Below are positions 3,001 to 19,000 of a stretch of DNA of 20,609 nt, piece by piece. This stretch comes from a virus. Positions within the stretch are counted from its first letter, which is position 1; every line of letters begins with the position of its first letter. Below the pieces are notes generated by a model. It had not been told where the DNA came from, ran no database searches, and saw only the letters and a program-made list of their open reading frames with translations. The stretch spans positions 1-20,609 of the IMG/VR virus record IMGVR_UViG_3300025880_000145, one strand, 5' to 3'. The position numbers and the translations under genes were made by a program.

Positions 3001-4213
3001 CCCCAGAACCGTAAGCGTCAAAAGGCTGAAAATCGTAATAATAAGAATAACCAAACAGCTGGTCTACCTCAAAAAAATCCAAGTCAGTATCCTCTTGAGA
3101 AGTTATATAAGGAACCTTCTCCCCAAGATCCTGCCAAAAATCAGAATTCCCAGGTTTCAAATTATCAGAACTAACATGATCCTGTATAGATTTATATACG
3201 TGACCATCCTCAAATACAACAAACCTATCCCCGCTAGCAATATACTCGTTTTTTAAAAAAACGTAATCAGAGGCCCCATTAATTGAAGCGTAATATTCCT
3301 GATTTAGCTCTATACTTGAAGAATCAAACAAAGCTTCGCCCTCTGGAATAGCGATAAACCTTATTCGGGTAGACTCAAAATCTGTATCTAAAGATGAAAA
3401 TGCAAACGAGCATTTTGACCCATGCAAAGACTGGGAAGCGGTTAAGTTTGGCTCGTAGTTTACGCCCGTCAACATACCAGTGCAAGAATTCCCAAAAACA
3501 TCAAAACCAACAATTTCAAAAGATACAGTCCTACTCAGGTTAAGCTCAGACTCTTCAAAAACTTCTCTACTTAAGTGAAGATTAAAATCTCTATAATAAT
3601 TCAGTTTATCAGAAACTTCGTCGGTAGAAAGGTTGTTGCGTAAAGCGGCAGACGAGTCAAGGATCGAATCTTCAATAATTAAAGAGTCGGCGCCATTCTT
3701 AATTTTCACTTTAAAATGATCAAAAAACTTATCAGAAAGCAACTCGGAGCTTACAGGCGCCCCCTCAAGAGGGTGACCAGCGGGCGGAAGAAGATCCCAA
3801 GATAGCTTTATATCCCTTCCGATATATTCTGAATTTACTATCATTTTATCGCCAGGGTATTCAGGCGTATGTATAATTGTTTTTCCTACCTCTGAAATTT
3901 GACTAATTCCATCTATTTTTAGATTAGAAAAAGTAAAAGTACCATCAAACTCCGGAGGGCTAATATTTACAGTATCCTCTAAAAATGAAGATCTTATCCC
4001 TATATCACTTACAGCAAAAACTCTTACTTTGAAGACTCCATAATTACCCTTCAAGGAAATAACCTCCTGAACGGTATCACCTATATTACTAACAATGTCA
4101 TTACCTCTACCCAATTCATACTGGAAAGAATAGTTATCTGAAGTCCCAACAACCTCGTACTTAGCACTTAAATCTAAAACCTTAAATTCGACGCCTAATG
4201 AAGTGGAAACCAT
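1..4213 (-). CDS. Large tail-tip/central fibre protein with Fn3-like and carbohydrate-binding-like modules (3' end beyond window)
   Basis: One reading frame is open from the ATG at 4213 to the left edge. I checked every codon and found no stop over 1404 codons, so the C-terminus lies outside the window. The N-terminus reads as a fibronectin-III-like beta domain. Around residues 320-365 and 565-710 are several short modules ending in W after a G/N/P-rich turn (for example NTPPSEGSAEW), resembling small carbohydrate-binding folds. Two segments share the pattern YYY-x-x-x-PFD-x-[YF]-GSG and look like paired Fn3-type repeats. Near residues 1295-1340 come WHAFANALIGSAHIENAAI and NAKIHNLTADKI, the pattern of the lambda gpJ central-fibre region just after the tip. 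It starts 5 bases after the gpI-J-like stop with no clear Shine-Dalgarno, so translation is probably coupled. I infer a distal tip or fibre component that contacts the host surface. The role is not proven, and the receptor-binding end is unseen. Confidence 0.85.
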   Translation of the reverse strand, partial: MVSTSLGVEFKVLDLSAKYEVVGTSDNYSFQYELGRGNDIVSNIGDTVQEVISLKGNYGVFKVRVFAVSDIGIRSSFLEDTVNISPPEFDGTFTFSNLKIDGISQISEVGKTIIHTPEYPGDKMIVNSEYIGRDIKLSWDLLPPAGHPLEGAPVSSELLSDKFFDHFKVKIKNGADSLIIEDSILDSSAALRNNLSTDEVSDKLNYYRDFNLHLSREVFEESELNLSRTVSFEIVGFDVFGNSCTGMLTGVNYEPNLTASQSLHGSKCSFAFSSLDTDFESTRIRFIAIPEGEALFDSSSIELNQEYYASINGASDYVFLKNEYIASGDRFVVFEDGHVYKSIQDHVSSDNLKPGNSDFWQDLGEKVPYITSQEDTDLDFFEVDQLFGYSYYYDFQPFDAYGSGAIYNLSEDSWGNSSLALRYSQYSDLKSITSSIKIRDLSFRERGDSLVFDWKFEDQDGLPVAISSYKYLTNVLDAPSVIGVSGHLFDNHTDQYLSGIFSEEIIESFSYSREKNNQIYKNGGYPPGVFSFDPSLVYSPGSSLNNCEVDQKLFSAYLDNSLEQPYIKPVYELWDSSRDYYKREGSPFSDIVSYNDKLFEVVQDFGPGLSSSLGLFNETSVYKAGDVVLFPVGFNIFTPSDRYFVGEMVLFEGSVFECLRDIEPNNILSFPDSNFEYWKKRHVYEKTNLFLFKANIDVGLSNTPPSEGSAEWSIQTPGSSSSFSLFADSFSSQPLTDNIYSEGFVFKRNVSNPTLAPTTPLVSLNQDYSAEEWTPFWELDDRFDDVVFKHVGIPEGGKRSVGLEVGIVDSNGTVVVSDRIIGDNPAPTISSNGFSVDSQSEVTKVKFNFNYIRGRQEKTTLLNLYRSDQPDFEITGSDGLPFTEINQTNSTFVKSVLGEGDATFGDNITQIVDDTAEVGEEITGYYYKLLPFDDFGSGVLYTAVDDKDPIEKVWVLPKNFHSKNPDAPTGPAIKITTDEIPGPVKNLEGETAFENYFLNWNMPNAQIQNNLLVDAAPNDISYYEVWQSAGQPNNFLQFSDGSFLTEEQNATGYRRIDGIQYTFGDNIPTEYEDFASGIVNATNVLDIDASSPSIQITHRGQVNDTSYFWVRPVDHAGNKGPFTGASDLANTDNVEGLKLILGQAKTTDIADFEQNITKTFPNTVALVPNNPFKNQDPNSSSISWESHYLYNNGTGYYISAGSTDDKFLYFTGSSLELTEDQKKEELKLGQAGGGTLDDSKNNPLRNVVFTGDYDSVDYHPAGQGQGTDNELPAVVDDSDFIIARNVNGVASPMWHAFANALIGSAHIENAAITNAKIHNLTADKIRSAEIKGQDIQVGLGGGSGQIRSAGFDGLADTGKGFVVSGDGSFVFAADDGRLHFDDGELVLEGKLKQVDGKEYTFIDL
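2078..2520 (-). other. Cluster of CBM5/12-like modules in the fibre protein
   Basis: Residues about 565-710 contain successive units: LWDSSRDYY...FSDIVSYNDKLFEVVQD; SVYKAGDVVLF; YFVGEMVLFEGSVFECLRD...FEYWKK; LFLFKANIDVGLSNTPPSEGSAEW. Each ends near a Y/F-x-W after a loop. A similar unit lies at about 320-365 (3120-3260). Confidence 0.5.
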
Positions 4214-4218
4214 AACTA

Positions 4219-7200
4219 TTATACAGTTAAATCTGTTAAAATCAAACCTTCAGGAGGCTCAGGTACAGACATATCTGCTTGAGGGGGTATTGGCAATGAA
4301 GGTTTTCTGACTATACCCTTTTTATCTATGGCCGCAAACTTCGAAGGGTTATATTCTAAAGCTGATACCTTATACTTATTATAAGGCTCTTCATTAATAG
4401 ACATTACCCGATACAACGCGGACTCATAAATCCTCTGGTTAATTGATCTGGCGTTTTCGAAAAAACTAATATATCCATAATTCTGCAAAGAAAAATTCTG
4501 CGTGTCCATTATTTGCTTTAATTGCGAAGAACCAATAAGCTCAACAATGTCTTCAGATATCCTAATAGTGTGCCAGGATTGAGCAATAATGCTTTGGTGA
4601 AAAGCCCCACTTATATTATCCTCAACACTATCGAAATTAACCGTAAAGTTTTGACTAAGATCCGCGTCATGAGAATTTAAAATCTTTACATGAACAGACT
4701 CCTCTCCCTGAATGGAACTTTCCGAACCAGAAGGAATAAACTCCAAAACCCCCACTCTTTTGAAATTTGAATTATCCAAGAAATTTTCAACAGATGCGGC
4801 AGTAGGAGTGGTGCTGGAATTAGATATTGAGTCTCTATAAGAATCATCCCAGCCTTTAGCAAAATCATCCCTAAATGCTAAAACATAATATTCAGCACCC
4901 TGAACAGGAACAGAAATAACCTCAAGATCAATATCGCCAATCCTGTAGTCGTCCGAAACTTCCAGAACTCCACCACTCTGCATATTATCAAATAAAAATA
5001 TACAATAAATCTTTCCTTTTTCTGAAATTATAGGAGAAATCCAAGTTCCGTCTTCCGAACCTCTCTCTCCATCAGAAACAAGCCAGAATTCAACACCATC
5101 ATTATAGTAAACATCACTCAACCAAATCCAACCCAACTCAAGACTCCAAACCCAACCGCTGAACAGTTCATTATCGAAAAAATTATCTATAGATATCCAC
5201 CTGGCGTAATGAGAGGACAAAAGGATCCAAGATCTAGAGTGAATATAAATTCTACCAAATCTGGAAGATTGAGCCCAACCAAAACCTGAATCGTGCGTAA
5301 CCCCAAGCTTGTTTAATTCCGCATCAGTAAAACCTATTCCGTCTACCCCCAAATCAACACTCCTTCTTTCAGAGTCAAAAAGCCCAGCAATAGAATAAGC
5401 TGAACCTGGGTCTATTTGCTCTATTGCGCTTAAAGTAAGGGGGGAAATCCCTTCGATATTTTCGGGAGAAACGAAATGCTTTCCTCCTCGATTAGACAAA
5501 GAGTCGAAACCTTGATCTACAATATTCACAACCGCCCCTCCATCTTCAAGAGACAAAGTAAAACTATGTCGGTTTACATCTTTAACAAAATAAGCTTTTT
5601 GGAATTTTCTATCGACAGATAGCCCCCCAGGAAGAACCCCAGAGGAAGAAAACCGAACCCTATCCCCGCTCTTTAAGTTATGGTTAAATAACTTAACCTG
5701 ATTTAAGGTTATATCAAACTCAACCTGAAGCTTCAACATTAAATCCGTAAGATAAGTAGACTGCCCATCGGGACCAAAATCCTCTGGGTCGCTAGAAACA
5801 TTAATAAATGCTGAAAACTTAAAGTACTGAGGAGTCTGCAGGGAATCAATTTCCTGATCTTGATCTTGTTGAGAAGATTCGCTTTTACTTCTTTTTTCTA
5901 TCAAATCAAGATCAGTATTAATTGCTCCAGAAGCTATTGTAACCTCAATCCTGGACAAGGAAGGCTCTGACTCTATTCTTTTATCAACAAAGATGAGGTG
6001 CTTAATAATCTCTTTGCCAGCAGCGGTTGTTCTTTTTTTTCTTTTTAAAGAAAGAACCCTTCCGCTTTTATTTTTACCTGCTCGCATTTCGTCAGACACC
6101 TCAATAATAGAACCAGGAGCCAAGTATGCCGCCTCTTGACCGCACTCAAAAGACACCCCCTCAGTCTCTAACTGGGAGGTCATTAGCACCCACCTAGCAA
6201 ACCTCCTTGCTTGACTCTGAGACGTAACTCCCATCGACATAATCTCGTGTTCTAAATAACCAGAAGACTGGGAAGCTTCAGCGTCTTCTTCAAACACAAT
6301 ATCCGGTTTAAAATTTTTTTCTGAATTATTATACCTGATCAAGACAGCGGTTATTCTTTTATTTTTGTAAACGCCAGAATACGTAAAACCATCTGGAGAA
6401 ACATTTGAATTATTAAAAAGCATAGAAGGCTTCTTGAAGCAATCAATCACAGACGTGACCTTCCCATCTTGATAGGAAGTTATACCTCTAAACACAGAAG
6501 CTATAGAGTTTAGAATCTTTAACGAGTCAGCTCTTTCGGTAAAGTAAAAGTTTGAAGAAAACCTAGGCTCAACGACAGCATGATTTTTCTGAACAACGCA
6601 GGCTCCAATAGTATTTTTTATAATTCCTACCCCCGGCATATTATGCTCAAAGGTTGCTGAGTTACTTTCAAAACTAGGACCTGTAACAGTCAACTTTCGT
6701 TTCTTCCAGTCGCTAGAATGAATAACTCTTTCCTCGATCACAATTTCCCCCTCCCTAAAAGCGGACCTTTCTTGAGCTAACCTCCTTTGCGAAAGGGTTA
6801 ACCCGCCTAACGAAAAAGAGTGTTGATGTATAAAAAACGCAATCTTTTTACCCCTAAAAGAATCTCCGTCCCCGAATTCATCTATCCACTCATCATCGGT
6901 AAGCGTAACGTTTTCTCTGTCTTGATCAAAGGAGCTCCCCGAAATATCTAAATCAAAAACGCCCAAATCATATTCATTTCCATCAAACACAATCTCATTA
7001 TAAGTGCTAAACAGGCGAGGCACGCCATGTTTGTTTTCTATAGGAAAATCAGTCTCAACCAACTCATCGCAATATTTAGCGATCCTATAAAGCTGCCATT
7101 TGTCTATATTTTTTTCCTCCAAGCCGTATTTCCCTAGGCCGTACCTGCAATTATTCAACATATCAAAGTATACCCAAGCGGGATTATCTGTCCACACTTT

Positions 7201-8841
7201 ATCTTTATCGCTTATGCTATATATAGATTCAGAGGATGATTTTTGACCCTTGAACAAGCCGTTCCACGGACCTATGTATTTTTTCGAAAACTCATCAAAA
7301 TTAGAAGGGACCAGTACCCTTTTTAATTTCACGTGGAAAGTTCTAGCAGGAACTTTCGAGAAGTTCTTGGAATCGATACAAAAAGATATCAATGAGGAAT
7401 TAGGGTATAAAAGTTTTTCGTTAATTACTTCGACGATATGCGCAACCGACAATGCTCTCTCCCTCCTCATTCCACCAACAGTTCCCCCGCTAACAGAAGG
7501 GTCCAACTCAGAACTGAGTTTTATAAAGTTTAGACTAGATACATTTTCCCCTAAGTCTATCTTAAGATCTACCTGGTAAGCTGATGTAGCAAGACCGTTA
7601 ATCACGAACATCCCATCATTTTCCCCTGTTTTCTCGAGCCAATAAAAAGACCCACTGCCATTACTCAGGGTATTTCCTGAAAAGTCAAAACCCGAAGTAG
7701 GATCTTTTTTTAAATCGACCAAATTATACTTTTCATTATCAATTACAACCTCAATAGCAAACCTTACGTTCCAACCAGAGACTTCGCCACTCTGTTTATT
7801 GGTTTGAGAACCTTGAAATTTAAACGCGGCGATTACCGAAGATACGGAACTATTAGAGACTGAATGAGCGAACGCCTTAGCCCCTTGTTTCATAGCTCTT
7901 TTCGTTGTTCCCCAGAAATCTGCACTTCCCGGAGAAGTTGACGGGCCATAAGGGCTTGAGCCAAACATGACATTTTGATAATCAATTAAATATCTTACAT
8001 CTGGACTCAAAAGCTTAGTCTCGCCATCTTCACCCAATTTTATTACAGGAACATCTTCTGTATCTTCATTTAAAATATAGTTTAGAGAATTATCCCCTTC
8101 CCCGCTAGATTTTGGAGTATTCTTTACTTGAACATTATTTAAAAAAATACCCTCTCTAAGATCTGAAGTGCTAAGGAGCGCTCCATTAGAGTTGGTTAAT
8201 CCTAAAATTGGCCCTTCAGAGATAAGGTCAACATACCTCAACTTAACATAAGACTCTAAATGGCCGTTTTTAGAGTTGGTATATTTAAAAGTCTCCTGGT
8301 AGTGAGAAATTTCGGTAGAGCCAATAATCAACCTTCCGTAACCCAAAGGAACAGCGATTCCCTGGGCTCGCCTATTAGAGCTTCCAGAAAGAAGAAAAGA
8401 CTTTGTAGATACTGGGTCTTTCCTATCGTCCTTAGGTTCAGGAGGCTTTGTTATTATAGCTATAGCTATTTGAACAGCCGTCATAACTATCATAACCTTA
8501 GTCATAACAGCTGCAGCTTTCCAGGCTGCTACAACGGCTGTTATAACTCCGGAACCAGCAACAACTGGAAGAACGTGAATTTCTTTAGAGTTAACAATTA
8601 AGTTAAAATTACTATCTCCTATAGAGTTATCAATTAAATCTCTTTCATTCTTTATGCTCGAAGGGTGCCTACAAACTATAGCGTAGTGAACCTCCCTCAA
8701 TTGTTGATCAATGATATAATCAAAAAAACCTTCACAATTTGAGTCTATAGCTCGAAAAGCCTCCAGCGCACTATCGACGTTAAGGTCGAATTTTCGACCA
8801 AATTTCTCACCTAATTTTCCGTATAAAAAAACACTCTTCAC
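4219..8841 (-). CDS. Fused lambda gpI-like / gpJ-like tail tip (host specificity) protein, 1540 aa
   Basis: Residues 1-95 match the small lambda tail assembly protein gpI (SVFLYGKLGEKFGRKFDL, ending VLPVVAGSG). A hydrophobic, Ala/Val/Ile-rich stretch follows at about 95-131. From about 155 the chain is gpJ-like: NRRAQGIAVPLGYG, RYVDLISEGPILGL, VWTDNPAWVYFDML, CRYGLGKYGLEEKNIDKW and the block around RFARWVLMTSQLETEGVSFE (about 880-900). The usual end of the gpJ tip core, YRVMSINEEPYNKYKVSALEY, is displaced to about 1477-1497. Roughly 450 residues lie between, holding a small beta module (about 1050-1100, LKSGDRVRF) and a tryptophan-rich module (about 1185-1290). gpJ forms the trimeric tip/central fibre hub that binds the receptor. 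The start is GTG with AAGG six bases upstream, and it preserves the gpI N-terminus. The gene ends in tandem TAA TAG. The family call is strong; the roles of the inserts are unknown. Confidence 0.93.
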   Translation of the reverse strand: MKSVFLYGKLGEKFGRKFDLNVDSALEAFRAIDSNCEGFFDYIIDQQLREVHYAIVCRHPSSIKNERDLIDNSIGDSNFNLIVNSKEIHVLPVVAGSGVITAVVAAWKAAAVMTKVMIVMTAVQIAIAIITKPPEPKDDRKDPVSTKSFLLSGSSNRRAQGIAVPLGYGRLIIGSTEISHYQETFKYTNSKNGHLESYVKLRYVDLISEGPILGLTNSNGALLSTSDLREGIFLNNVQVKNTPKSSGEGDNSLNYILNEDTEDVPVIKLGEDGETKLLSPDVRYLIDYQNVMFGSSPYGPSTSPGSADFWGTTKRAMKQGAKAFAHSVSNSSVSSVIAAFKFQGSQTNKQSGEVSGWNVRFAIEVVIDNEKYNLVDLKKDPTSGFDFSGNTLSNGSGSFYWLEKTGENDGMFVINGLATSAYQVDLKIDLGENVSSLNFIKLSSELDPSVSGGTVGGMRRERALSVAHIVEVINEKLLYPNSSLISFCIDSKNFSKVPARTFHVKLKRVLVPSNFDEFSKKYIGPWNGLFKGQKSSSESIYSISDKDKVWTDNPAWVYFDMLNNCRYGLGKYGLEEKNIDKWQLYRIAKYCDELVETDFPIENKHGVPRLFSTYNEIVFDGNEYDLGVFDLDISGSSFDQDRENVTLTDDEWIDEFGDGDSFRGKKIAFFIHQHSFSLGGLTLSQRRLAQERSAFREGEIVIEERVIHSSDWKKRKLTVTGPSFESNSATFEHNMPGVGIIKNTIGACVVQKNHAVVEPRFSSNFYFTERADSLKILNSIASVFRGITSYQDGKVTSVIDCFKKPSMLFNNSNVSPDGFTYSGVYKNKRITAVLIRYNNSEKNFKPDIVFEEDAEASQSSGYLEHEIMSMGVTSQSQARRFARWVLMTSQLETEGVSFECGQEAAYLAPGSIIEVSDEMRAGKNKSGRVLSLKRKKRTTAAGKEIIKHLIFVDKRIESEPSLSRIEVTIASGAINTDLDLIEKRSKSESSQQDQDQEIDSLQTPQYFKFSAFINVSSDPEDFGPDGQSTYLTDLMLKLQVEFDITLNQVKLFNHNLKSGDRVRFSSSGVLPGGLSVDRKFQKAYFVKDVNRHSFTLSLEDGGAVVNIVDQGFDSLSNRGGKHFVSPENIEGISPLTLSAIEQIDPGSAYSIAGLFDSERRSVDLGVDGIGFTDAELNKLGVTHDSGFGWAQSSRFGRIYIHSRSWILLSSHYARWISIDNFFDNELFSGWVWSLELGWIWLSDVYYNDGVEFWLVSDGERGSEDGTWISPIISEKGKIYCIFLFDNMQSGGVLEVSDDYRIGDIDLEVISVPVQGAEYYVLAFRDDFAKGWDDSYRDSISNSSTTPTAASVENFLDNSNFKRVGVLEFIPSGSESSIQGEESVHVKILNSHDADLSQNFTVNFDSVEDNISGAFHQSIIAQSWHTIRISEDIVELIGSSQLKQIMDTQNFSLQNYGYISFFENARSINQRIYESALYRVMSINEEPYNKYKVSALEYNPSKFAAIDKKGIVRKPSLPIPPQADMSVPEPPEGLILTDLTV
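4972..5289 (-). other. Tryptophan-rich module in the gpI-J-like protein
   Basis: Residues about 1185-1290: FGWAQSS, SWILLSS, RWISI, SGWVWSLELGWIWLS, FWLV, GTWISP. The spacing W...LGW-[ILV]-[YW]-[LV]...[FW]W/F matches modules in two other genes of this operon (12537-12968 and 15024-15464). It sits in an insertion within the gpJ fold. Confidence 0.65.
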
Positions 8842-8858: not shown

Positions 8859-9197
8859 CTATACACTTATATTCCCGTATAAGAAAAACTCTTTATCCAT
8901 TAAGCTATATATCAAGAAAGGTAAGCACAGTTCGTCAGAAATTTTCATATCAAAAGGAGTGGGCCTACAACTGGTTCTCGGGTGAGAGTGAAATATGCAT
9001 ACTGTATTATATTCAATTATAAGGCGATTATCTATTATAAAAAAATCAAACTTATTGTCACTCAAATTCTTTGCGGGTAAAAAATAAAACTGATCTTCAA
9101 TTTTATGAATAATACCGCAAGACTCCTCAAGAGGATTAGACAATGCATACGCTTCTATTTCTTTTAATATTTTTTCATTAAAATCAACCCTGGACAT
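8859..9197 (-). CDS. JAMM/MPN (JAB) metallopeptidase, tail assembly protein corresponding to the N-terminal half of lambda gpK, 112 aa
   Basis: The motif set is complete. Counting from the ATG at 9197, Glu25 lies in PLEESCG, and HSHP at 70-73 is followed ten residues after the second His by Asp83 (E...HxH-x10-D). His70, His72 and Asp83 should bind zinc and Glu25 should be the general acid/base. Lambda gpK joins such a domain to an NlpC/P60 peptidoglycan hydrolase. Here the chain ends about 30 residues after the motif, and no NlpC/P60 domain is present. Its position between the gpL- and gpI-like genes is the lambda order. The ATG at 9197 overlaps the gpL-like gene by 14 bases. An upstream TTG at 9227, with GAAGG eight bases before it, would add ten residues (122 aa), but the shorter form matches where this family usually begins. 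The natural substrate in phage tails is not known to me. Confidence 0.88.
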   Translation of the reverse strand: MSRVDFNEKILKEIEAYALSNPLEESCGIIHKIEDQFYFLPAKNLSDNKFDFFIIDNRLIIEYNTVCIFHSHPRTSCRPTPFDMKISDELCLPFLIYSLMDKEFFLYGNISV

Positions 9198-10209
9198 TAT
9201 ACTTTTCTGTACCAGGAAAACCTCCAAATCTCAAACCTTCATAAGTTTGATCAGCCCTATTGTAAGGAATAAGGTCTAGCTTAGATCTACCAAACCTCTT
9301 CGAGCAAGATTCCAGCGTTTTAGAGCATTCATCTTTCAACCAGTACCTAGAGTCTAGATAAGGGTGATGCATAGACACATCCTTATGCTGTTTGTTACAA
9401 ACAAAAACTTGAGGAACCCTTTTTTGGGGGTTTTTGTAAACTTTGCCTTCAATCATTACAACATCTCCGACTTCATATTCAGATTTATTTCGATCCCATT
9501 CAGCAATACTAGAATTCTTATCGGGATCTATATCGTTGTACAATACCCTCCCCTCTTGAGTCTCAATAGGTAAGCCCTTATAACCGCATCCAATAGAGCA
9601 ACGATAGGTCCAGTTACAATAATCAGCCATCACGATCCTTGCAGGAACCCAAGACCCTTCAAATTCTAAAGCCGAGACAAGCTCAAATTGGATAACTTGT
9701 TTGTTTTCTGAAACTTTTTTATTTATAAAGTAAACATCGTCCAAGAGGTGGGAATTTGGATCCGCCGCGCCAAAAGGATTCTTCCCTTTTTCGTTTAAAT
9801 TTTTATTTTGAAAGTTTTCATCATCAAGAAATCTTGCATAAGTCCTCTTTCTTGTGACTTGGCAATTTGAGAAATCTTGATTAGAGTGAGAGATTTTAGA
9901 AAATATACCTTCTGGATTAGCCATTGAAAGCATAGGCCTTGGAAGCTTACCGTCAGAGGAAGAATCAAAACCTTCCATCTTAATAGGTAAAGGTTGATAC
10001 GATACACCTTGCCATATTACAGGATTAGAGTTGTTAATCATTGGGCAAAATCTATACTTAGCCTCAGCTCCGAAGTTGACCCCGTACAAGTCACTTAAAT
10101 TCTCAAAATCTACCTGAAGATTAGAAAAATCTATCTCAAAAAAAGATATAAGAGAGTCAGGAATTAAAGATGTTAATTGCTTATTTAAATTCGATTGGGA
10201 CTTACTCAT
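9184..10209 (-). CDS. Minor tail protein L-like (lambda gpL family) with inserted carbohydrate-binding-like module, 341 aa
   Basis: Strong lambda gpL signature: PVIWQGVSYQPLPI, RPMLSMANPEG, RKRTYARFLDDENF, VPARIVMADYCNWTYR followed by CGYKG, and C-terminal CSKTLESCSKRFG then LRFGGFPG. gpL proteins sit in the tail tip and are known to coordinate an iron-sulfur cluster through four cysteines. The equivalents here should be Cys198, Cys208, Cys295 and Cys302, with an extra Cys204 between the first pair. Residues about 235-295 split the two cysteine pairs and read W..NKSEYEVGDVVMIEGKVYK ... YWLKDE, a small aromatic module like CBM5/12 chitin-binding domains, absent from lambda gpL. The protein is therefore longer than lambda gpL (about 230 aa). 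The start overlaps the previous stop as ATGA, indicating translational coupling, and no Shine-Dalgarno is visible. The gpL call is secure; sugar binding is inference. Confidence 0.93.
   Translation of the reverse strand: MSKSQSNLNKQLTSLIPDSLISFFEIDFSNLQVDFENLSDLYGVNFGAEAKYRFCPMINNSNPVIWQGVSYQPLPIKMEGFDSSSDGKLPRPMLSMANPEGIFSKISHSNQDFSNCQVTRKRTYARFLDDENFQNKNLNEKGKNPFGAADPNSHLLDDVYFINKKVSENKQVIQFELVSALEFEGSWVPARIVMADYCNWTYRCSIGCGYKGLPIETQEGRVLYNDIDPDKNSSIAEWDRNKSEYEVGDVVMIEGKVYKNPQKRVPQVFVCNKQHKDVSMHHPYLDSRYWLKDECSKTLESCSKRFGRSKLDLIPYNRADQTYEGLRFGGFPGTEKYNVQG
9325..9507 (-). other. CBM5/12-like module inserted in the gpL-like protein
   Basis: Residues about 235-295: W, then YEVGDVVMIEGKVYK, then FVCNKQH, then RYWLKDE. 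The pattern W...Y-x-x-GD-x-V-x-x-x-G-x-x-[YF]...W is that of small chitin-binding-type folds. It lies exactly between the two cysteine pairs of the gpL core. Confidence 0.55.
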
Positions 10210-13200
10210 AAATTTTTAATATATACACTTAATGAAGCTTCTTGAGGGCTAAATTGCTCACTGCTTTCTATAATAATCTTTGAACTATAATACGTATCTT
10301 CATTGGAAATTTCAATAGGCCCGGAAGATTCAGGCAAAGTTCTCGACTGAGAGGGACCATGATCGTTCCAGTGAATCTTACCAAATAAAGATTTACTAGT
10401 TTTATCTTTAAACTCTGGAGACCCTTCGATTATTTTAATCGCCTGCCCAACAGTAGTATTTCCATCAAAAGTCCAACCCCAATGATCATTCGTTTCTACA
10501 TAGCTAGGAACCCTGTCCAACATTTTTTGAAACAAAGTACTAAGTGTATCGCTAGTATGAATCTTTAATTTGAATTCGCGAGAAAAAGAAAGTTTTTGAC
10601 TCAAAAAACTTAAATAAGAGGCAGATAGATCTGAATATTTATTAACGTATGATTCGTAAATATCATCGCCGACCAACTTATAATATATTTGCTCGCCATC
10701 TTCGTTCACTAGGTAATTTTTTTCCTGCGAGAAACCTTCCCCATCAAAGACTATATCAATAAAACCAGAAGATCCTCCGGGAATTTCTGCTTGAGAATTG
10801 TTTTCAAAAAACTGCTCAGCAATAAAATATTCACAAAGGTAACGTTCGCCATCCTCATCTAAAACATCCCTTATTTTTCCTGTGTTATCCTGAAAAAAAG
10901 ATTGCTGGCGACCATTTACTAACTTAGGAGTCCACTCGCTTTTTACTGTCCCGCTACCCTCCATTAATATAAAAAATTGCCCACCGTCTAAACCATCCTT
11001 AAATTTCTTATCAAGTTTAATTTTTGCCCCATCAAGATTAAAAGGTAAATTCTTATCACTCGGCAAGACGTAAATAAAAGACTCTGCAGAGGTGGACTCG
11101 GGAATAAAAGGGGGCACCAAGGAGTTAGAGCCAAGAATTTCAAAATGATCATCATTGCAAATAATTGAATGTAAAGTAACAGGTCCATCACCTATATTCT
11201 CCAACTTTAACCTATTCCTTATTCTTTGTTTATTATAACCTCCAGAAGAAAATTTATCCGAGAAAACCAGTGGAGACGAAAAACTTAACTCTCCGGGAGT
11301 ATACAAAGGTGGAGAAGTATAACTGGATAAATTCGAAGAGGTTAAATTAAAAGGGAACTGCTCAAAAACAGCAGAAATGCTATGATTATTCTTAAAATTA
11401 TAAACATGACTCCACTCCGAACATATAAAATTTTGAGGAGTCTCGTATGGAGCAGGAGGAGAGAATAAGAACGGAATAGATCCGTAATGACTCTCTAAAA
11501 AATGAAGAATGGCCCAAGCCTCCTCGTCACCCCTATTATTAAAACTCAAGTTCAGCGTAAGTAAATTATCATTAATACCATCTTTATACATCTGAATATA
11601 AGAGTTATCAACAGAGATTTCCTGGAGAGAAACTGAATGGTTTACCTCAAGACCCAAAGAAGGCTTCCAAAAGAAATCTCTAGTCCAAAATTCTTTATTT
11701 ATTTGTTCGTAATAACCAAACTCACGAGAATATTCGCTCGTTTCACGAACCGGACTTCTTCCATTAACAGAAGAAGACTCATTCCAGTAATAATAATACT
11801 CATGATCTCCAGTAGAAAAAATTACATCATTAAGTTGATAATTTATATTTTCATTATAACTGCCAGGAGGCTTTACATACATACTTTCAGACTTATTAAG
11901 TATTGAAGTATTAAAATTTCTAAAAGATAAAGAAATATCATTACTGTTTTCGAAATTCAAAGAATGGGAAAATTCATTACAGTAAAAATCTTTAGACTGA
12001 TTAGATATTGAATCGTACGGATGGAAGGTTGAATCCCCGCCCCACCTAAATCCAGACACTCCCTGAGAATATTTTAAGTTTACTGAATTTTCGTGTTTTT
12101 CATGCTGCCCCTGATGATTTTCTAAAAAATGAATAATTGCATTAGCTTCTCTGTTAGTCCTATTCTTAAAACTTAAATTAAAATTGCAACTTAGAGAATT
12201 AATAGACTTCGGCTGCGTTATATAATAACCATTACCAAATTCATATTTAAAATTATCGCATTTAAAATTAGCAGAAGAGCCGTAATCGCAGTCAAAAAAG
12301 AACAAATCCTTTGCCCATTTATCAGGGCTACTGCCAGGAGTAAAGTTTATCAAGGATAACTTTATAGGGTTAGAGGATTTCTCCTCGAAAGACACTATAG
12401 AGTCATTATCTGTTAACCCTTGAATTTGTATTTTTGAAACCTTTCCGTCTCCCAGTCTGTCAGGAACAGGAAAAGAAGGCTTAGATTGAGTAATAGTAAC
12501 TCCATTGACATTATTATTTACTCCAGCAAGATCCCTTTTTATGCCGTACCATTTTTCGTTAGAAAAATTATAAATAAACATAGAGTTATCTTGATCGCCT
12601 TTGCTCAGATATAACCAACCTTCAGGCCCAAGCTCATTAGTAAATTGAGGAACCAAGTAAAGAAAACTGTTTGATTCGAGATCACTTCCTCCGATAAGTT
12701 CTTCACTAGCATAGATCCAATGCCCCGCAGGTAAGGCCCCCTCAGGAGTATTTCTTGAAAAAAACGTCTCTCTAAAAAACCACAACTTTCTCTCTGGGGG
12801 AGATAAGCTTAAGCCCTGCGGCAAAGGTGAAAGGTACAACCAACCAAGAGCGCTAGTTCTTATCCAGTTAGTTTCTTGAGAGCGCCAGAATGAAGTTAAA
12901 TTTAATTCATTATCTCCACCTCTTCCAGGAAACAAGAACCAGCTTGATCTATACCAACCAAACCCAACAGTAGAAACATCAAGGGTTTGAAGAATAATGT
13001 CGCTATCGGGAATATTCTCAACGTTAGCTTCAACGTCTTTAATTAAAAAACTTCCATCATTACCATTAACAGAACCCTCTATTTTTAAAGTCTGACCCAC
13101 TTGAAGTTCACTGCCGAGAGCTTCAGCTTCAGCAAGTTCATCTATTATATAATAAGATGGCTTGCCGTCAATTAACGGTCCGTCAGGATCAAGAGAAAAT

Positions 13201-13430
13201 CGGTGAGAGCTCTCGAGAACCAGTCCCGCTCCGTCGGTAATATCCTCCTTTGCATAATAAAAAGAACTATCTCCAGTATTGTAAACAAAATCGAACTTTT
13301 TATAACTAGCTCCTTGTTCAAAATTACCACTATAATTCGAAATATGCCCAGCGAAAGAAGGAGGCTTAAATCCTGGATCAATATTCTCTAGTAACTGATC
13401 TATATAAAATGGAGATCCTGGGTATTTCAT
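10206..13430 (-). CDS. Giant minor tail protein with two gpM-like domains, tryptophan-rich module and Ig-like region, 1074 aa
   Basis: Domain order as read: short aromatic module at about 30-75 (YKKFDFVYNTGDSSFYYA); small beta module at about 75-150; tryptophan-rich module at about 155-298 (FGWYRSSWF, ALGWLYLS, GWLYLS); first lambda gpM-like domain at about 390-510 (FEFG-type GY turn, NLSFKNRTNREANAIIHFLE, FYCNEFSHSLNF); second aromatic module at about 520-590 (YQLNDVIFSTGDHEYYYYW); second gpM-like domain at about 590-695 (NLSFNNRGDEEAWAILHFLE, FICSEWSHVYNF). An Ig-like segment like ASH/SPD-2 domains follows at about 730-828 (LKLENIGDGPVTLHSI ... GSG), then an unrecognised C-terminus. Lambda gpM is a single domain of about 110 residues that starts tip assembly with gpL. 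Position before the gpL-like gene agrees. The gene starts 2 bases after the previous stop and overlaps the next gene by 4 bases. Confidence 0.82.
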   Translation of the reverse strand: MKYPGSPFYIDQLLENIDPGFKPPSFAGHISNYSGNFEQGASYKKFDFVYNTGDSSFYYAKEDITDGAGLVLESSHRFSLDPDGPLIDGKPSYYIIDELAEAEALGSELQVGQTLKIEGSVNGNDGSFLIKDVEANVENIPDSDIILQTLDVSTVGFGWYRSSWFLFPGRGGDNELNLTSFWRSQETNWIRTSALGWLYLSPLPQGLSLSPPERKLWFFRETFFSRNTPEGALPAGHWIYASEELIGGSDLESNSFLYLVPQFTNELGPEGWLYLSKGDQDNSMFIYNFSNEKWYGIKRDLAGVNNNVNGVTITQSKPSFPVPDRLGDGKVSKIQIQGLTDNDSIVSFEEKSSNPIKLSLINFTPGSSPDKWAKDLFFFDCDYGSSANFKCDNFKYEFGNGYYITQPKSINSLSCNFNLSFKNRTNREANAIIHFLENHQGQHEKHENSVNLKYSQGVSGFRWGGDSTFHPYDSISNQSKDFYCNEFSHSLNFENSNDISLSFRNFNTSILNKSESMYVKPPGSYNENINYQLNDVIFSTGDHEYYYYWNESSSVNGRSPVRETSEYSREFGYYEQINKEFWTRDFFWKPSLGLEVNHSVSLQEISVDNSYIQMYKDGINDNLLTLNLSFNNRGDEEAWAILHFLESHYGSIPFLFSPPAPYETPQNFICSEWSHVYNFKNNHSISAVFEQFPFNLTSSNLSSYTSPPLYTPGELSFSSPLVFSDKFSSGGYNKQRIRNRLKLENIGDGPVTLHSIICNDDHFEILGSNSLVPPFIPESTSAESFIYVLPSDKNLPFNLDGAKIKLDKKFKDGLDGGQFFILMEGSGTVKSEWTPKLVNGRQQSFFQDNTGKIRDVLDEDGERYLCEYFIAEQFFENNSQAEIPGGSSGFIDIVFDGEGFSQEKNYLVNEDGEQIYYKLVGDDIYESYVNKYSDLSASYLSFLSQKLSFSREFKLKIHTSDTLSTLFQKMLDRVPSYVETNDHWGWTFDGNTTVGQAIKIIEGSPEFKDKTSKSLFGKIHWNDHGPSQSRTLPESSGPIEISNEDTYYSSKIIIESSEQFSPQEASLSVYIKNL
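12537..12968 (-). other. Tryptophan-rich module in the gpM-like protein
   Basis: Residues about 155-298: FGWYRSSWF, NWIRTSALGWLYLS, LWFF, HWIYASEE, FLYL, EGWLYLS, KWYGI. This is the longest and clearest copy of the module shared by three tail proteins. Confidence 0.68.
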
Positions 13431-13432
13431 AA

Positions 13433-14353
13433 TTAGCTGACTACTTCTCTGATTGATATGGAACCCATTGAGTGTTGACCCTCAGAAATGGATAAAGACT
13501 GATCAACAATTCTGCCGGAGCAATCAAACTTAGCTATCTGAGTATCCTGCAAAGAGTACAAAAAAGCAGAAGCATCAACCATTAGATCGCTATTTACGCC
13601 AGCAAGCCTTTGTTGAACTCCGTAAGAATTTAAAAAAGGAACAATTTCGTTAGAAGTTATATTCATTTTTTTTTCTATTCCTTCAACAGAAACCCTGCAA
13701 GGAAGAACTCCCGAAGCGTTAGTATTTACAGAGGTGTTTTCAGATTCTCTAACTCGATAATGCGTTTTTCTTTCCACCTTTATACTATAACTTAACTCGC
13801 TAATTTCAAATCTGCCCCCAACAACATCCTCCGCAATTGACGAACCAATTTTTAAATCCCCAAAAGATTTCAATCCGTGAGCAAAATCAACCTCGCTCTT
13901 ATTAAAGGTGTCGGCAACACCCTTATTAGTTATAGTTCCGTAAATAGCGTAAGACGCTGAAGCCTGAATAACGCCAAAAGGAACAAGCTTGAAGCTCAAA
14001 GATGTTAAAAAAGCGTTGTCAAACGAGTACCTCCCAACTTTATTTCCGTTAACAGGAAGCTCTGACATTCCACTCTTTATATCGAAGATCCTATTTATGT
14101 TATTAGGGGAGCCGTCTTTTGAAAAAGTTTCTGCAGATATATAGAAACCTATATCCAAAGTTCCAGTTAGCGGCTGAATAGGAGAAAAGCCAACAAATTC
14201 AACTCCCGCTCCAGACAATCCCCTTTTATAATTTCCGTAAACTTTTTCAACAGCAAGAGATGGGCTCATAGACAAATTAGCAGAGTTGACCATTAAATCT
14301 TTATTACCTAAAGATATTTTACCGCTTTCAAATCTTAAAAAAGGGTCACTCAT
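13433..14353 (-). CDS. Putative tail structural protein, tube-like beta fold, 306 aa
   Basis: I do not recognise a named family with certainty. The protein is rich in short alternating beta-strand patterns and has no signal peptide, membrane segment or catalytic motif. Its first 140 residues follow the same plan as the start of the preceding 574-aa protein: an opening strand pair, then P-L-[TE]-G-x-[LF]-x-[IV] (PLTGTLDI here), then a strand pair ending in ASASYAIYGT (compare ETSLTVYGE). Phage tail-tube proteins often show this arrangement, so the two may be diverged copies of a tube-like subunit. The middle has SYSIKVERKTHYRVRE and the C-terminus repeats short strands. It lies between tape measure and gpM-like genes, where lambda has no gene, so a baseplate/distal-tail collar role is plausible but unproven. 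The ATG overlaps the previous stop by 8 bases. Confidence 0.7.
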   Translation of the reverse strand: MSDPFLRFESGKISLGNKDLMVNSANLSMSPSLAVEKVYGNYKRGLSGAGVEFVGFSPIQPLTGTLDIGFYISAETFSKDGSPNNINRIFDIKSGMSELPVNGNKVGRYSFDNAFLTSLSFKLVPFGVIQASASYAIYGTITNKGVADTFNKSEVDFAHGLKSFGDLKIGSSIAEDVVGGRFEISELSYSIKVERKTHYRVRESENTSVNTNASGVLPCRVSVEGIEKKMNITSNEIVPFLNSYGVQQRLAGVNSDLMVDASAFLYSLQDTQIAKFDCSGRIVDQSLSISEGQHSMGSISIREVVS

Positions 14354-16070
14354 AATTTAAATACCTGTAAGTGTCATAACCTTTATATGTCAAAGATATA
14401 GACATCTCCCCCTCAACAGAAGAAGAAATAGATTCTCCCACGAGCCTTACGTTTCTTCCAAAAAAAGAATCAATTTCCAACCCTGTCTTAGAATCACTTA
14501 TGATTATACTTACGTTACTCTTTGGGGCGGACTGAATTCTATCTTTTATTTCTCTTATTTCGTAATTATTTACTATAATAGTAACATTAATGTCTGTTTC
14601 TATTGGGTACTGAGTGTCAACTTGAACAGGTTCTAGATTTTTCACTGAAGCCTTTTTCCCCAAAGCCCAATCCTCTGAAGTTCCTTTTGGGATCGCGTAT
14701 ATAGGTTGAAGATTTATTGCTCGACTAAAACTAAAATCACTAACAGCGTCTATATTAAAATCATCAATAATTATTGATATAGTTGATTGGTCTGGAAAGC
14801 TGATTGGTGGATGACTACTTCTTATAAGTTTATTGACATCGTAAGTAGCTAGCTCAAAAGCGTCTTTTCCCAGAGTCAAAATATCCGAGGCGGGGAGCAG
14901 AAGGTTATCCTGAACAGTTGCAGAAGGAGCTAGGCTTGGAGATAGTTGTCTTAAATTTATATCCTCTAAGCTTAACTCTTCAAGTATTAATTTGGAAGTA
15001 GAATCAACAGATAACCCCGACATTCCGAGCCACCTTGAGCCAGAATGGTCATAAAGAATAGATTTATACTCGCCCAAAGAATCTCTAAAAAATTCAACCC
15101 AAGTATTCTGCATAATATTTTGTTCTGGAGAGAATAAATAAGCTACACCCCTCGAATTTAATAATTCCTGATCGGACCACATCCAAACCGGCGACTGAAA
15201 AGCCCCTCCACTCCCTTGCAATTCAAGAAAAACAGAAAACCACATTTGCTTGCTCGAGGAAAAATTAGACTCAGAAGTTTGAACGTAAACCCAGCCAAGA
15301 AAATTATTAAAGACCCAATAAGAACTTAAGGTATGATCGAAAACCCCGTTCACTTCCGGGCAATATGTAAGGCTATAGTTTAAAGACAAAGAGGTATTCT
15401 TCTTGGAAATAAAAAACCAATCGGAATAATACCACCCCGAGGAATAAGTGCGCAACCCTAAAGCCTCAACAAATCCGTACTGGATAAATTTAGAGTCCTC
15501 GGCTAGACCATTATAAGCCTGATCAGATACACTAAGAGTTTTATTTTTCCAAGACTCAAGCAGATTTACGTTTTGATCAATAAATTCTTCGCTAGAGCTC
15601 GTTAGGTAAACGTAATCCCCATCAAAACCTTCATTATAATTTTTTTTCAAAACAAACAACGAGCTATTCCCAGCCATCACCCCTTTTCCCAGTTCTCCAT
15701 ATACAGTTAAACTCGTCTCTATGGAGGGTATATCTCCCACAGAGCAAGATATCGAATACTGATTAACCCGAGCCTTAGTAAAACCGAAACCTTTCGAGTT
15801 ATTATCGTATAAAATAACTCCACTGATTTCTTGTTCGTCAAATTTATAATTACCCAAAGAGTCCCGCTGAAGCAATGGGTCAGAACTTACCATTTCCCTC
15901 GATACCGAAAAGTTACCCTCTAGAGGCTTGTCAACTAGGGCATCAATAAAACCAACCCCTGCAACCTTAATTGGCTTTTCGGATATCCCATAATTAGCCT
16001 CCACACTCTGAACTCCCGATAAGGCAAAACCGTCAAGAATGACAACTTGTTCGTAATTCGAGTAGCTCAT
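14346..16070 (-). CDS. Putative tail structural protein, tube-like ends split by a tryptophan-rich insert, 574 aa
   Basis: The N-terminal about 130 residues look tube-like (FALSGVQSVEANYGI, DKPLEGNFSVSREM, YSISCSVGDIPSIETSLTVYG). The C-terminal about 190 residues are a second beta-rich part (DFSFSRAINLQPIYAIPKG, QVDTQYPIETDINVTI, EMSISLTYKGY). Between them, at about 203-349, sits a tryptophan/tyrosine-rich module (SSGWYYSDWFF, FLGWVYV, MWF, VWMWSDQE, SRWLGM) shared with two later proteins. The ends read as one interrupted structural domain, so the insert probably protrudes from the tail. No enzyme motif is visible. The ATG at 16070 overlaps the tape-measure stop as TGATG. A TTG one codon upstream, slightly closer to an AGGAGGG, is the alternative start. 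Placement right after the tape measure suggests a distal tail or tip protein. Function is inferred. Confidence 0.75.
   Translation of the reverse strand: MSYSNYEQVVILDGFALSGVQSVEANYGISEKPIKVAGVGFIDALVDKPLEGNFSVSREMVSSDPLLQRDSLGNYKFDEQEISGVILYDNNSKGFGFTKARVNQYSISCSVGDIPSIETSLTVYGELGKGVMAGNSSLFVLKKNYNEGFDGDYVYLTSSSEEFIDQNVNLLESWKNKTLSVSDQAYNGLAEDSKFIQYGFVEALGLRTYSSGWYYSDWFFISKKNTSLSLNYSLTYCPEVNGVFDHTLSSYWVFNNFLGWVYVQTSESNFSSSKQMWFSVFLELQGSGGAFQSPVWMWSDQELLNSRGVAYLFSPEQNIMQNTWVEFFRDSLGEYKSILYDHSGSRWLGMSGLSVDSTSKLILEELSLEDINLRQLSPSLAPSATVQDNLLLPASDILTLGKDAFELATYDVNKLIRSSHPPISFPDQSTISIIIDDFNIDAVSDFSFSRAINLQPIYAIPKGTSEDWALGKKASVKNLEPVQVDTQYPIETDINVTIIVNNYEIREIKDRIQSAPKSNVSIIISDSKTGLEIDSFFGRNVRLVGESISSSVEGEMSISLTYKGYDTYRYLNYE
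15024..15464 (-). other. Tryptophan-rich module in the 574-aa tail protein
   Basis: Residues about 203-349: SSGWYYSDWFF, YWVFNNFLGWVYV, MWF, VWMWSDQE, YLFS, TWVEFF, RWLGM. It aligns motif by motif with the copy at 12537-12968 and separates two tube-like halves of its host protein. Confidence 0.66.
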
Positions 16071-19000
16071 CAATCAAAAAGCAACCCTCCTGGACGCTGC
16101 TCCTGGACAATGACAGCTACAACTTGAGTTTTTATTTTGTCCGCAAACTCTTGAGCTCCGTCAGGCCCTCCATCCTCCGAATTTGGTTTTGCATCTTCAA
16201 CCTGAGTTGCGTCTTCACCTGTGCCCTTTTTAATGTTGACCGATATGGAAATATTATTAGTGTTCCCTCCTGAAGATGTTGACTCAGCAACCGAGTTTAT
16301 AGGGGAAACCTCTCCTCCGAATTGAAATTTTCCTGCATTTATTTGATCAAGCATTGGCTTACCAAGTTGACGAGCACTACTAGCCTTGATTACATACTCT
16401 CCTTCGCTTAACATCGCAGGAATTTGATCGATTCCAGATTTTCCTGCGATGTGTCCACCACTGGCATACTTACGAATTGGGCCTCCGTTGTATAATCGAC
16501 CTAACTGGCTACTATAATTATAATCACCAAATTGAGAAAAATCTCCTACAGGGCTAGACTTAACGCCCGAAAAATCAAATGAGCTTTCAGGCATTCTTGA
16601 TATAGTGTCCCTTCCTAGCCCCATTTTTGGCCCACTGCTGCCGCTAAATATTTTTCCAAGTGCAAATTGAGCGGCAACGCCAATAGCCATATTCATCAAC
16701 TGCTTTCTTTTTGCTTTTTTAGCCTCCCTTCTTGCTTTTTCCATTTGACGAATATGATCTTCCTCTGAAAGTATTGATTGCATTGCACCTGTATCCTCGG
16801 TAAGTCCCACATTATCAGACTGAGCGTAAAAAGCGCTGCTCATCGCTCTTTTTTGGTACAACCTACCAGAGTCAAAACCTCGCCCTCCTCCAAAATTTTG
16901 GGCAAGCGCAGACCCTTGTTCTACAGGCGCCCCCATAGAACCCTCTTCTCTTTTTATTTTCCCCTTCGATAGTAAATTATTCTCCACAGCAGTTCTCAGA
17001 GAATCTTGACGTTTCTTTTTTCCTTCTAAAATTTTTGAAGATATACCGCCACCAATTAATCCAGCACTAAAAACTTCCCCGCCGCTAGCGAATTCAGGAG
17101 CGCGCCCTCCAGCGTTCAATCCATGCATAAATGATCCGCCGTATTTATTTACAGCCTCTCGACTCATTAAATATTCTCCATCCGAAACCCTTGCGGGAAC
17201 ATTTCCGCCTTTTGAGTAATTGCGGACATTACCTCCTTGAGAAAACCCCATGGACCCCATTGCTTGCATGACCATTTTTTGCATCATGGCTTTTTGAATC
17301 ATACCAAGAAACCCAATCGCGGCATCCATTAAACCTTCTTTTATGCTTTTTGTGCCATTAATTGCGTCAACCATTGCGTTGGAAAGCCCATCAGCGAAAG
17401 CTTGCGGAATTCTTTGGCCAAGCTCGTAGTCCATCGTTTCAACTTGTTCTGCCATGCTTTTCATGCCGCCCGCCAACCCTCTACCAAATGCTCCAGATCC
17501 AGTTTCGTGTTTTCTTTTGATTTCGAGTCTTTCTTTCTCTTTATCTAAGAGCGCTTGCTCGCTTGATATTTGTTTATTTGTCTCTTTGGTTATGTTTTTT
17601 ATTTTTTGTTCGATTTCTTCTAGTTTCTTTTTTCTTTCGGCCTCAAGTTTCTCCAGCGTATTCAGTGTTTCTAGGTCTTGGTCAGAAATTAACAAAGGCT
17701 CACTATAATCTTCTGCATCTTTTTTGTTTTGTCTTAAATTTTTGAGTTTATCCTGGTCAACCACTTGATTAGTTTTTTCTTTTTCTATATTTAGCTCTCT
17801 TATAGATCTTTCTTTATTTTCTTCGAGGGTTGTGATTTTAGATTCTAATCTAAATCCTTTCTCGGACATTGCAAAATCTTCCCTTTCCCTACCAGTTTGG
17901 TATCCTGGACCTACAGCATTTAACCTTTTTGCTGCGGCAACTTGTTCGGTAAACCCTCGGATTTTCTGGGAAGACCGAAGGCCTTCTGAAGACATGCGGT
18001 TTTTTCTTTCTAAATCTTTTATAATTTCAGCCCGACCTGCGAGTATACCATTAATCTCTCGCTCTCTATCTGCTTGGCTTGTAGAAACACCCTTCTGCCG
18101 TTCCGCCAGAGACAGTATGTTTTCCATTTTAGTTATTTCTAAAGATAATAATTCATTAATAGCCTTTCTTATTGTTGAATTTTCACCCGCTTCGCTGGCG
18201 ATACTCTCTAAAGTAGACTTTAGTTCTTTTCCAGTTAACGAACCGACCCTCTCACTAATATCTTGAAAAGAGGACGTATCATTCATTCGAAGAGCTTTCT
18301 TTAATTCCCCCTGCAAAGGGTCGTTGACCTTTAATTGAGCTAATATACCTGTTCTTAATTGATTATCGGCAGAAGCTGCCGCATTAGAGTATGCTTCTTC
18401 GGCTTTATTTATTGCTTGAAGGTATTTGCTTTGGGCTTTTTGCTGATCGGTCATCAAGCTACCCATTAATTTTTCTTCAAACTTTAAGTTGTCAGAAATT
18501 TTCGAATAGTTTTCTTTTATCTCAAGCTGTTTTACGGCTGCGGCTTGTTGGGCGGCGATTTGAGCTTTTTGAAGATTAAGTTGTGTAATAACTCCTCGAG
18601 CTTGTCCGTTTTTTGAATTATTATATTCTTCTTCTAAGACTCCTTGTTCTCTTAATTTTTTGTTTATTTGAGATAATTCAGCCTTGCGCTCTTTACCAGA
18701 AATATCTTTAGCAGATTCGCCTTTCAATAATTTGCGGTATTCATCTTTTTGAAATAGAATGTCCTGTCCACCCTCTTCAAATTTAAATTTAAATTTATCA
18801 GCCTTTTCATTATCTAAAAAATAATCGACGGCCTGACCTCGGGCCTGTCTTCTCCCGGAGCCCTTGCTTAATAAACTTTGCCTTAAAGATTGAATGTTAG
18901 TGTACCCCATTGTATTCAAAAAACCTGAAACTCCCCGAATATCATCGTCATCAATATTGGAAAGATTGTAGTTTGGATCAGTTCTCTCTCCAGATGCATA

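Follow-up and report, generated by a model that had tools for sequence, protein, structure and literature searches.

A predicted CBM5/12-fold module lies between the cluster cysteine pairs of a gpL-type phage tail-tip hub protein

Introduction

In the cryo-EM structure of the lambda tail-tip protein gpL, four cysteines (C173, C182, C205 and C212) surround the density of a cluster, the iron-binding domain is located on the outside of the tip, and the functions of the cluster are said to remain uncharacterised (PMC10721106). The cluster is described as essential for tail assembly and activity in the paper on roseophage R4C (PMC10276861), and some lambda homologues are reported to be devoid of it (PMC13243795). 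In the RcGTA hub, the ion-binding domain is described as consisting of two pieces (residues 143–167 and 250–263) with an oligosaccharide-binding domain (168–249) between them (PMC7296036), and the R4C hub is described with the same layout and an insert at residues 162–243 (PMC10276861). For the upper baseplate protein gp50 of JBD30, C147, C156, C238 and C245 are placed around a putative metal (PMC11445458).

An earlier note on the DNA studied here, made from the sequence alone, had treated an insertion between the cysteine pairs of a gpL-like protein as special. This part of the note did not stand, as the layout is known from RcGTA and R4C and the cysteine spacing of JBD30 gp50 implies a further case. 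The position of the insert is already known; a CBM5/12 fold at this position was not found described in the literature searched via open-licence PMC.

Results

The DNA analysed, referred to as the window, comprises 20,609 nucleotides (positions 1 to 20,609 of IMG/VR virus record IMGVR_UViG_3300025880_000145) and originates from an uncultured, probably long-tailed phage. An open reading frame at 9184–10209 on the minus strand encodes a protein of 341 amino acids, which matched Pfam Phage_tail_L (PF05100) with 152.4 bits (cut-off 25), NCBIfam TIGR01600 with 154.2 bits (cut-off 70.75) and PHROG 18 with an E-value of 6.9e-64. These profile matches identify the product as a hub protein of the gpL type, belonging to a tail tip like that of lambda. 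Residues 16–183 of its predicted model superimposed with lambda gpL (8iyk_L) at Z 15.0 and an rmsd of 2.3 over 140 residues, and by this structure match residues 1–190 (9640–10209, minus strand) are assigned to hub domain I, a tail-tube-like beta-sandwich. The C-terminal tail (residues 310–341; 9187–9282, minus strand) carries a conserved G-G/A-F-P motif at 329–332, in which G329 and F331 were found in 64/64 and P332 in 63/64 sequences.

The neighbouring genes, all on the minus strand, follow the order M-L-K-I/J. The large distal-tail protein of 1074 amino acids (10206–13430) contains two gpM-type stretches matching Phage_min_tail (E 9.9e-24). A JAB-type protein of 122 amino acids in the gpK position (8859–9227) matched PHROG 30 (E 4.2e-14), with Prok-JAB at 22 bits remaining below the cut-off of 25. 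The gpI and gpJ proteins are apparently fused into one protein of 1540 amino acids (4219–8841), which matched PHROG 32 at residues 1–184 and PHROG 31, the central tail fiber J; Lambda_tail_I reached 17.7 bits, under its cut-off of 23.8. Several further observations were made in this region. The length of 1074 amino acids and the two Phage_min_tail stretches in the gpM position would suit a trimeric rather than a hexameric distal ring, an arrangement described for JBD30 (PMC11445458), and a second peptidase domain was not reported for the JAB-type protein. Two proteins of 306 and 575 amino acids (13433–14353 and 14346–16073, both minus strand) are located between a tape-measure-like open reading frame and the gpM-type gene; they had no Pfam match up to an E-value of 1 and no strong PHROG match. 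A partial open reading frame of 1404 amino acids (window positions 2–4213, minus strand) matched CBM_5_12 with 26.0 bits (cut-off 26.2) and, weakly, Phage_Tail_Tip.

Relatives of the hub protein were collected by scans of IMG/VR virus contigs, each of which contributed its 80 top-scoring loci, the relatives thus being the best 80 of 325 from one scan and no random sample; a second set of 80 loci yielded 18 extracted sequences, many of the others being contigs already included. After removal of L171 and L174, which are truncated, and of L096 and L097, which have no insert, 79 distinct full-length sequences bearing the module described below were obtained, including that of the window.

The protein of 341 amino acids contains cysteines at positions 55, 116, 198, 204, 208, 271, 295 and 302, and C198 and C295 form the exact ends of the stretch 9325–9618 (minus strand). 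The window protein and nine of its relatives were combined into a ten-sequence profile, which was aligned with the gpL chain 8iyk_L (E 3.7e-30). In this alignment, C198 and C208 fall on lambda C173 and C182 within a stretch of 101.5 bits, the lambda numbers being counted off the alignment, and C295 and C302 fall on C205 and C212 within a separate short stretch of 2.6 bits, which alone is not significant; this second assignment was made also because of the C-x6-C spacing and the location near the chain end. The four cysteines were invariant in 79/79 module-bearing sequences. Accordingly aligned and conserved, C198, C208, C295 and C302 are taken, by sequence, as the counterparts of the four lambda gpL cluster ligands, as the earlier note had claimed, and binding of a 4Fe-4S cluster by the present protein is putative. 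The first ligand pair (C198 at 9616–9618 and C208 at 9586–9588, with the extra C204 at 9598–9600) thus occupies 9586–9618 and the second (C295 at 9325–9327 and C302 at 9304–9306) occupies 9304–9327, all on the minus strand.

The spacing of the four cysteines is x9/x86/x6, versus x8/x22/x6 in the two lambda-type proteins aligned with it. Among the 79 sequences the spacing within the first pair was 9 in 73 and 8 in six cases, that within the second pair was always 6, and the distance between the pairs, 86 residues here and 22 in lambda, ranged from 79 to 139. The stretch between the pairs includes a linker of variable length (residues 213–235; 9505–9573, minus strand): residues 213–236 showed a mean identity of 0.32 to the 78 relatives, and 42% of their columns were gapped. 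It is followed by a module of about 57 residues (236–292; 9334–9504, minus strand) containing W238, Y245, C271, P283 and W290, in good agreement with the aromatic module of roughly 60 residues that had been proposed between the pairs.

The fold of this module was predicted in two ways. A full-length AlphaFold2 model, for which 56 out of 83 distinct extracted proteins were aligned, had a mean pLDDT of 75.4, with 73–94 per ten-residue block for residues 231–300 and values below 50 for residues 184–198. Its residues 236–296 superimposed with the C-terminal part of the Vibrio cholerae chitin de-N-acetylase (COD, 4nyu) at Z 4.7 and an rmsd of 2.1 over 49 residues. The module modelled alone (residues 235–295, with 28 of 53 cut modules aligned) reached a pLDDT of 88.5, and its best VIA match was again V. 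cholerae COD, now at Z 7.4 and an rmsd of 1.4 over 47 residues. Further VIA matches included chitinase C of Streptomyces griseus (1wvu, Z 6.4), a GH18 chitinase of Chromobacterium violaceum (4tx8, Z 6.2), ChiB of Serratia marcescens (1ur9, Z 5.3), the chitin-binding domain of ChiA1 (1ed7, Z 4.7) and the cellulose-binding domain of endoglucanase Z (1aiw, Z 3.4). The best 22 rows comprised 19 enzymes or domains bearing CBM5/12, representing eight distinct proteins (the CODs of V. cholerae and Vibrio campbellii, the COD 3wx7, ChiC, the 4tx8 chitinase, ChiB, ChiA1 and endoglucanase Z), two phage tail-fibre chains and one unrelated protein. To judge from which ranges were aligned and from what is generally known of the enzymes, their matches fall on the CBM5/12 domains. 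The tail-fibre chains belong to phages Pa193 (9b45, Z 6.5) and 7-7-1 (9rkv, Z 5.0), and for the Pa193 fibre an AlphaFold prediction is reported to have been fitted into the density (PMC11042391).

All Z values of the module are below 8, a range in which VIA warns of common arrangements; we regard the match as true because of its distance in Z from the first unrelated protein (1wxr, Z 3.9) and the near-complete coverage of the segment. Foldseek also recovered these enzymes, at modest E-values (the best was 0.27, with a probability of 0.99), and in a viral structure library six of the 50 rows shown were named as ChiA1-BD-binding domain proteins, none of them at E ≤ 0.001. Strands were predicted close to both ends of the module (2–3 and 56–58 of 61), which fits with termini lying near each other. 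For residues of about 236–292, a CBM5/12-type fold is thus predicted with confidence. The CBM-like module that had been suggested for this stretch, with structure prediction as the check, was in this way recovered as a predicted CBM5/12 fold, with the Pfam score remaining below its cut-off.

Sequence comparison by itself would leave the CBM5/12 assignment weak and unsupported. Pfam CBM_5_12 scored 19.2 bits on the protein of 341 amino acids (cut-off 26.2) and was matched in 4/56 full relatives (best E 0.0012) and 6/28 modules; a profile-profile comparison of the module with nine CBM5/12 domains aligned 17 columns with a probability of 33%. The module profile found nothing among PDB sequences up to an E-value of 10, the module of one relative had five PDB matches up to the same value, none of them CBM5/12, and a PHROG scan of 28 modules gave nothing under E 0.028. 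A CBM profile made from the nine domains matched the hub reading frame of the window (E 0.0013, 11.7 bits), a match that was run without a shuffle control and is taken as weak. When large open reading frames of related viruses were searched with the module profile, the best real scores (11.4 and 10.9 bits, 16 frames) compared with a best shuffled score of 10.8 (320 frames), and the profile did not set real frames apart from shuffled ones. In the window the same profile found the gpL gene alone, itself a member of the profile, and hence no second close copy.

The site and size of the insert raise the question whether it might instead adopt the oligosaccharide-binding fold described for the RcGTA (168–249) and R4C (162–243) hubs, whose inserts share the insertion point and are of similar size. 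A weak match to the OB-type Pfam family tRNA_anti-codon (full protein E 0.18, module E 0.014) points in this direction, but its 15.7 bits are far under the cut-off of 27, and by structure the module comes closest to CBM5/12 enzymes and two phage fibres. No RcGTA or R4C entry stood among the VIA matches listed for the module model, which is no proof of absence. We judge an oligosaccharide-binding fold very unlikely here.

With the predicted CBM5/12 fold, the conservation of individual residues can be interpreted. Besides the four ligands, C271, W238, Y245, P283, W290 and D293 were invariant in the 79 module-bearing sequences; Y245 and W290 (79/79) correspond to core aromatics of CBM5/12 domains, a role described for the matching residues in PMC8449059. 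According to the same source, CBM5 modules bind chitin by a consecutive pair of exposed aromatics (PMC8449059). The corresponding region of the window protein, residues 272–282 (N-K-Q-H-K-D-V-S-M-H-H), contains no F, Y or W. When five intermediate modules from related viruses were included, the aromatic pair of CBM5 fell on K273-Q274 in 6/6 alignment settings, with W290 on the last CBM5/12 Trp, P283 on its Pro and C271 on its small residue; the five intermediates likewise had no aromatic pair at that place. Without them (28 modules and nine CBM5/12 domains), the pair was placed before P283 in one of three settings and on Y289-W290 in two. Beside the pair site lies an H-H-P-F/Y stretch (281–284), with H281 in 55/79, H282 in 57/79 and F or Y at 284 in 65/79 sequences. 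Most likely, to judge from these alignments, the CBM5/12 scaffold has been kept and the known chitin-binding surface has been lost. Without the canonical aromatics for chitin binding, any ligand that the module may have is probably something other than chitin.

The extra cysteines C204 and C271 pointed out in the note are both present, and had been thought to bear on the cluster. This was not borne out: C271 aligns with the small residue of ordinary CBM5/12 domains, as stated above, and C204 is found in 69/79 module-bearing sequences and lacking in the other ten. The best interpretation of C271 (79/79) is that it belongs to the module, because the motif Y-x-C-x3-H is also present in CBM5/12-like segments of large reading frames, presumably fibres and not gpL, of four related viruses (L329, L330, L333 and L336). 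A CBM_5_12 match outside gpL was found at E ≤ 0.1 in 12 of 13 related virus records, G409 having the gpL match alone, and exceeded the cut-off in four of the 13, in reading frames of 523–4038 amino acids; in the control genomes the corresponding figures were 4/14 at the lax threshold and 2/14 over the cut-off. A disulfide between C204 and C271 was rejected as a general feature, since 10/79 sequences have C271 without C204.

H275 is conserved in 76/79 sequences, and a His occupies position 281 or 282 in 68/69 proteins with C204 versus 0/10 without it, a co-occurrence that is confounded by kinship, as the tree does not demonstrate that such changes arose independently several times. Together with the invariance of C271, this could be explained by a second metal or redox site of C204, C271, H275 and H281/H282 that bridges the module and the iron-sulfur lobe. 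The C-x3-H of the C271/H275 position is, however, shared with the CBM5/12-like stretches of large non-gpL reading frames, C204 is dispensed with in ten sequences, and the co-occurrence is phylogenetically confounded; we consider such a site very unlikely.

The module was retained in all 79 distinct full-length sequences examined. In a tree of the N-terminal part only, with midpoint rooting, the module-bearing proteins formed one clade (support 0.944) against 60 other gpL proteins, namely every second scorable locus of a survey of insert-free loci plus named phages. The simplest interpretation of this sequence tree is that the module was acquired once and then inherited. Among closely related sequences (53 pairs, not mutually independent), pN/pS was 0.075 for the hub domain, 0.094 for the surroundings of the cysteines, 0.142 for the module, 0.210 for the linker and 0.282 for the C-terminal tail. 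The module evolves faster than the hub core, yet is under purifying selection. Over these 53 pairs, the pN/pS of the module gave no sign of the diversification that a specificity determinant would be expected to show.

These properties bear on the main rival to a surface contact, a purely structural role, in which a CBM5/12 scaffold that is past sugar binding would pack against gpJ, gpM or a neighbouring gpL and stabilise the cone. The absence of the canonical binding aromatics, the inheritance in one clade under purifying selection and the co-occurrence of C204 with His 281/282 (as if the module touched the iron-sulfur lobe) would all agree with a spacer. This co-occurrence may, however, reflect few events on the tree, and the strong variation of the gap between the pairs and of the gapped linker is a better fit to a displayed than to a tightly packed module. 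We regard a structural spacer as possible, though on balance rather doubtful.

Other gpL-type proteins were compared at the same point. The survey of insert-free loci covered 116 gpL loci, some of them overlapping and partly picked because they resemble a phage that lacks the insert, which makes the sample biased. Of 111 loci scored by the cysteine pattern (five were unscored), 103 had 20–23 residues between the second and third ligand, seven had 31–36 and one had 260; in the 31–36 group the pattern had started at the first ligand, and the two of the seven that were rechecked (L097 and L285) really have 22. A tblastn search with the module region alone against 50,697 phage records returned 30 records up to an E-value of 10, none of which is gpL-type. 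Sixteen of the 30 are Gordonia phage minor tail proteins with matches of 24–26 residues to the module (E 3–7), possibly another CBM5/12-like module.

No cultured phage with the module stood among the matches listed in tblastn searches of phage records with whole relatives (best 40 of 1249, 25 of 411 and 25 of 494 records) and with the module. Five records in the first search were covered to at least 80%; Synechococcus phage S-CBS4 (two records of one genome), PHB10 and B1VFA were examined, and OY757066 was judged by its span of 738 bases. In another search, 24 records were covered to at least 80%, and the 17 of them that were listed have spans of 648–789 bases, which, judged by the spans only, leave little room for a module plus the rest. 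The gpL gene of Synechococcus phage S-H1 is short as well (702 bases). The gpL of S-CBS4 (L098, 5965–7362) carries a stretch of 260 residues whose two ends both look helical by eye; the S-CBS4-type insert was found in other virus contigs, where 23/27 loci matched over the whole length, one of them 100% identical in a record of equal length. In two further genomes (L288/L298 and L289/L297), reading frames of 421–428 amino acids showed a Phage_tail_L match split near profile position 92, which marks another insertion point in the hub domain.

Discussion

The predicted CBM5/12-fold module would split the iron-sulfur lobe of gpL in the loop in which the RcGTA and R4C hubs carry their oligosaccharide-binding domain. 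As gpL is a trimer in lambda, each virion would by homology have three copies ringing the tip, presumably with a cluster like that of lambda and with the module displayed outward beside the gpJ cone. In this arrangement the module could make an accessory, low-affinity contact with glycans of the host surface and so assist the tail in locating the surface and staying on it ahead of binding by the main fibres. Glycan contact by the module is putative and plausible. The reading as a whole, a split gpL hub whose CBM5/12-fold module serves as an accessory contact to host glycans, probably other than chitin, is in our judgement evenly balanced between right and wrong.

More generally, one can speculate that the loop between the cysteine pairs of gpL is a general display port of the tail tip, which, depending on the lineage, is empty or holds an oligosaccharide-binding fold, a CBM5/12 fold or another long insert, and that the cluster is a rigid clamp stapling the ends of an exchangeable surface module. 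We consider this generalisation unlikely, although less so than the alternative fold and the second metal site discussed above. If it is true that phages mount surface modules in this loop, the cluster may also be a clamp, a role beyond tail assembly.

A comparison with the known systems shows how the present hub relates to them. It shares with lambda gpL (8iyk) the fold of hub domain I, the four cluster cysteines and the gene neighbourhood, and differs in the 86 instead of 22 residues between the pairs, which hold a predicted folded module, and in the additional C204 and C271. Synechococcus phage S-CBS4 gp036 is likewise a gpL-type protein with a large insert between the second and third ligand, but there 260 residues separate the pairs, and no CBM5/12-like motif was seen by eye in their sequence. 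JBD30 gp50 is likened to the present protein by spacing alone: in the published description it has four cysteines with 81 residues between the pairs, which implies an insert. In comparison with the CBM5/12 domains of V. cholerae COD, S. griseus ChiC, ChiB and ChiA1, the predicted fold and the core aromatics are alike, whereas the module described here scores under the Pfam cut-off, has no consecutive exposed aromatic pair and resides inside a phage hub instead of being appended to an enzyme. The RcGTA hub g13 and the R4C hub, as they are described, resemble it in that their iron-binding domain is divided into two halves by an inserted domain; their insert is an oligosaccharide-binding domain of 82 residues, while that of the present hub is predicted to have a CBM5/12 fold.
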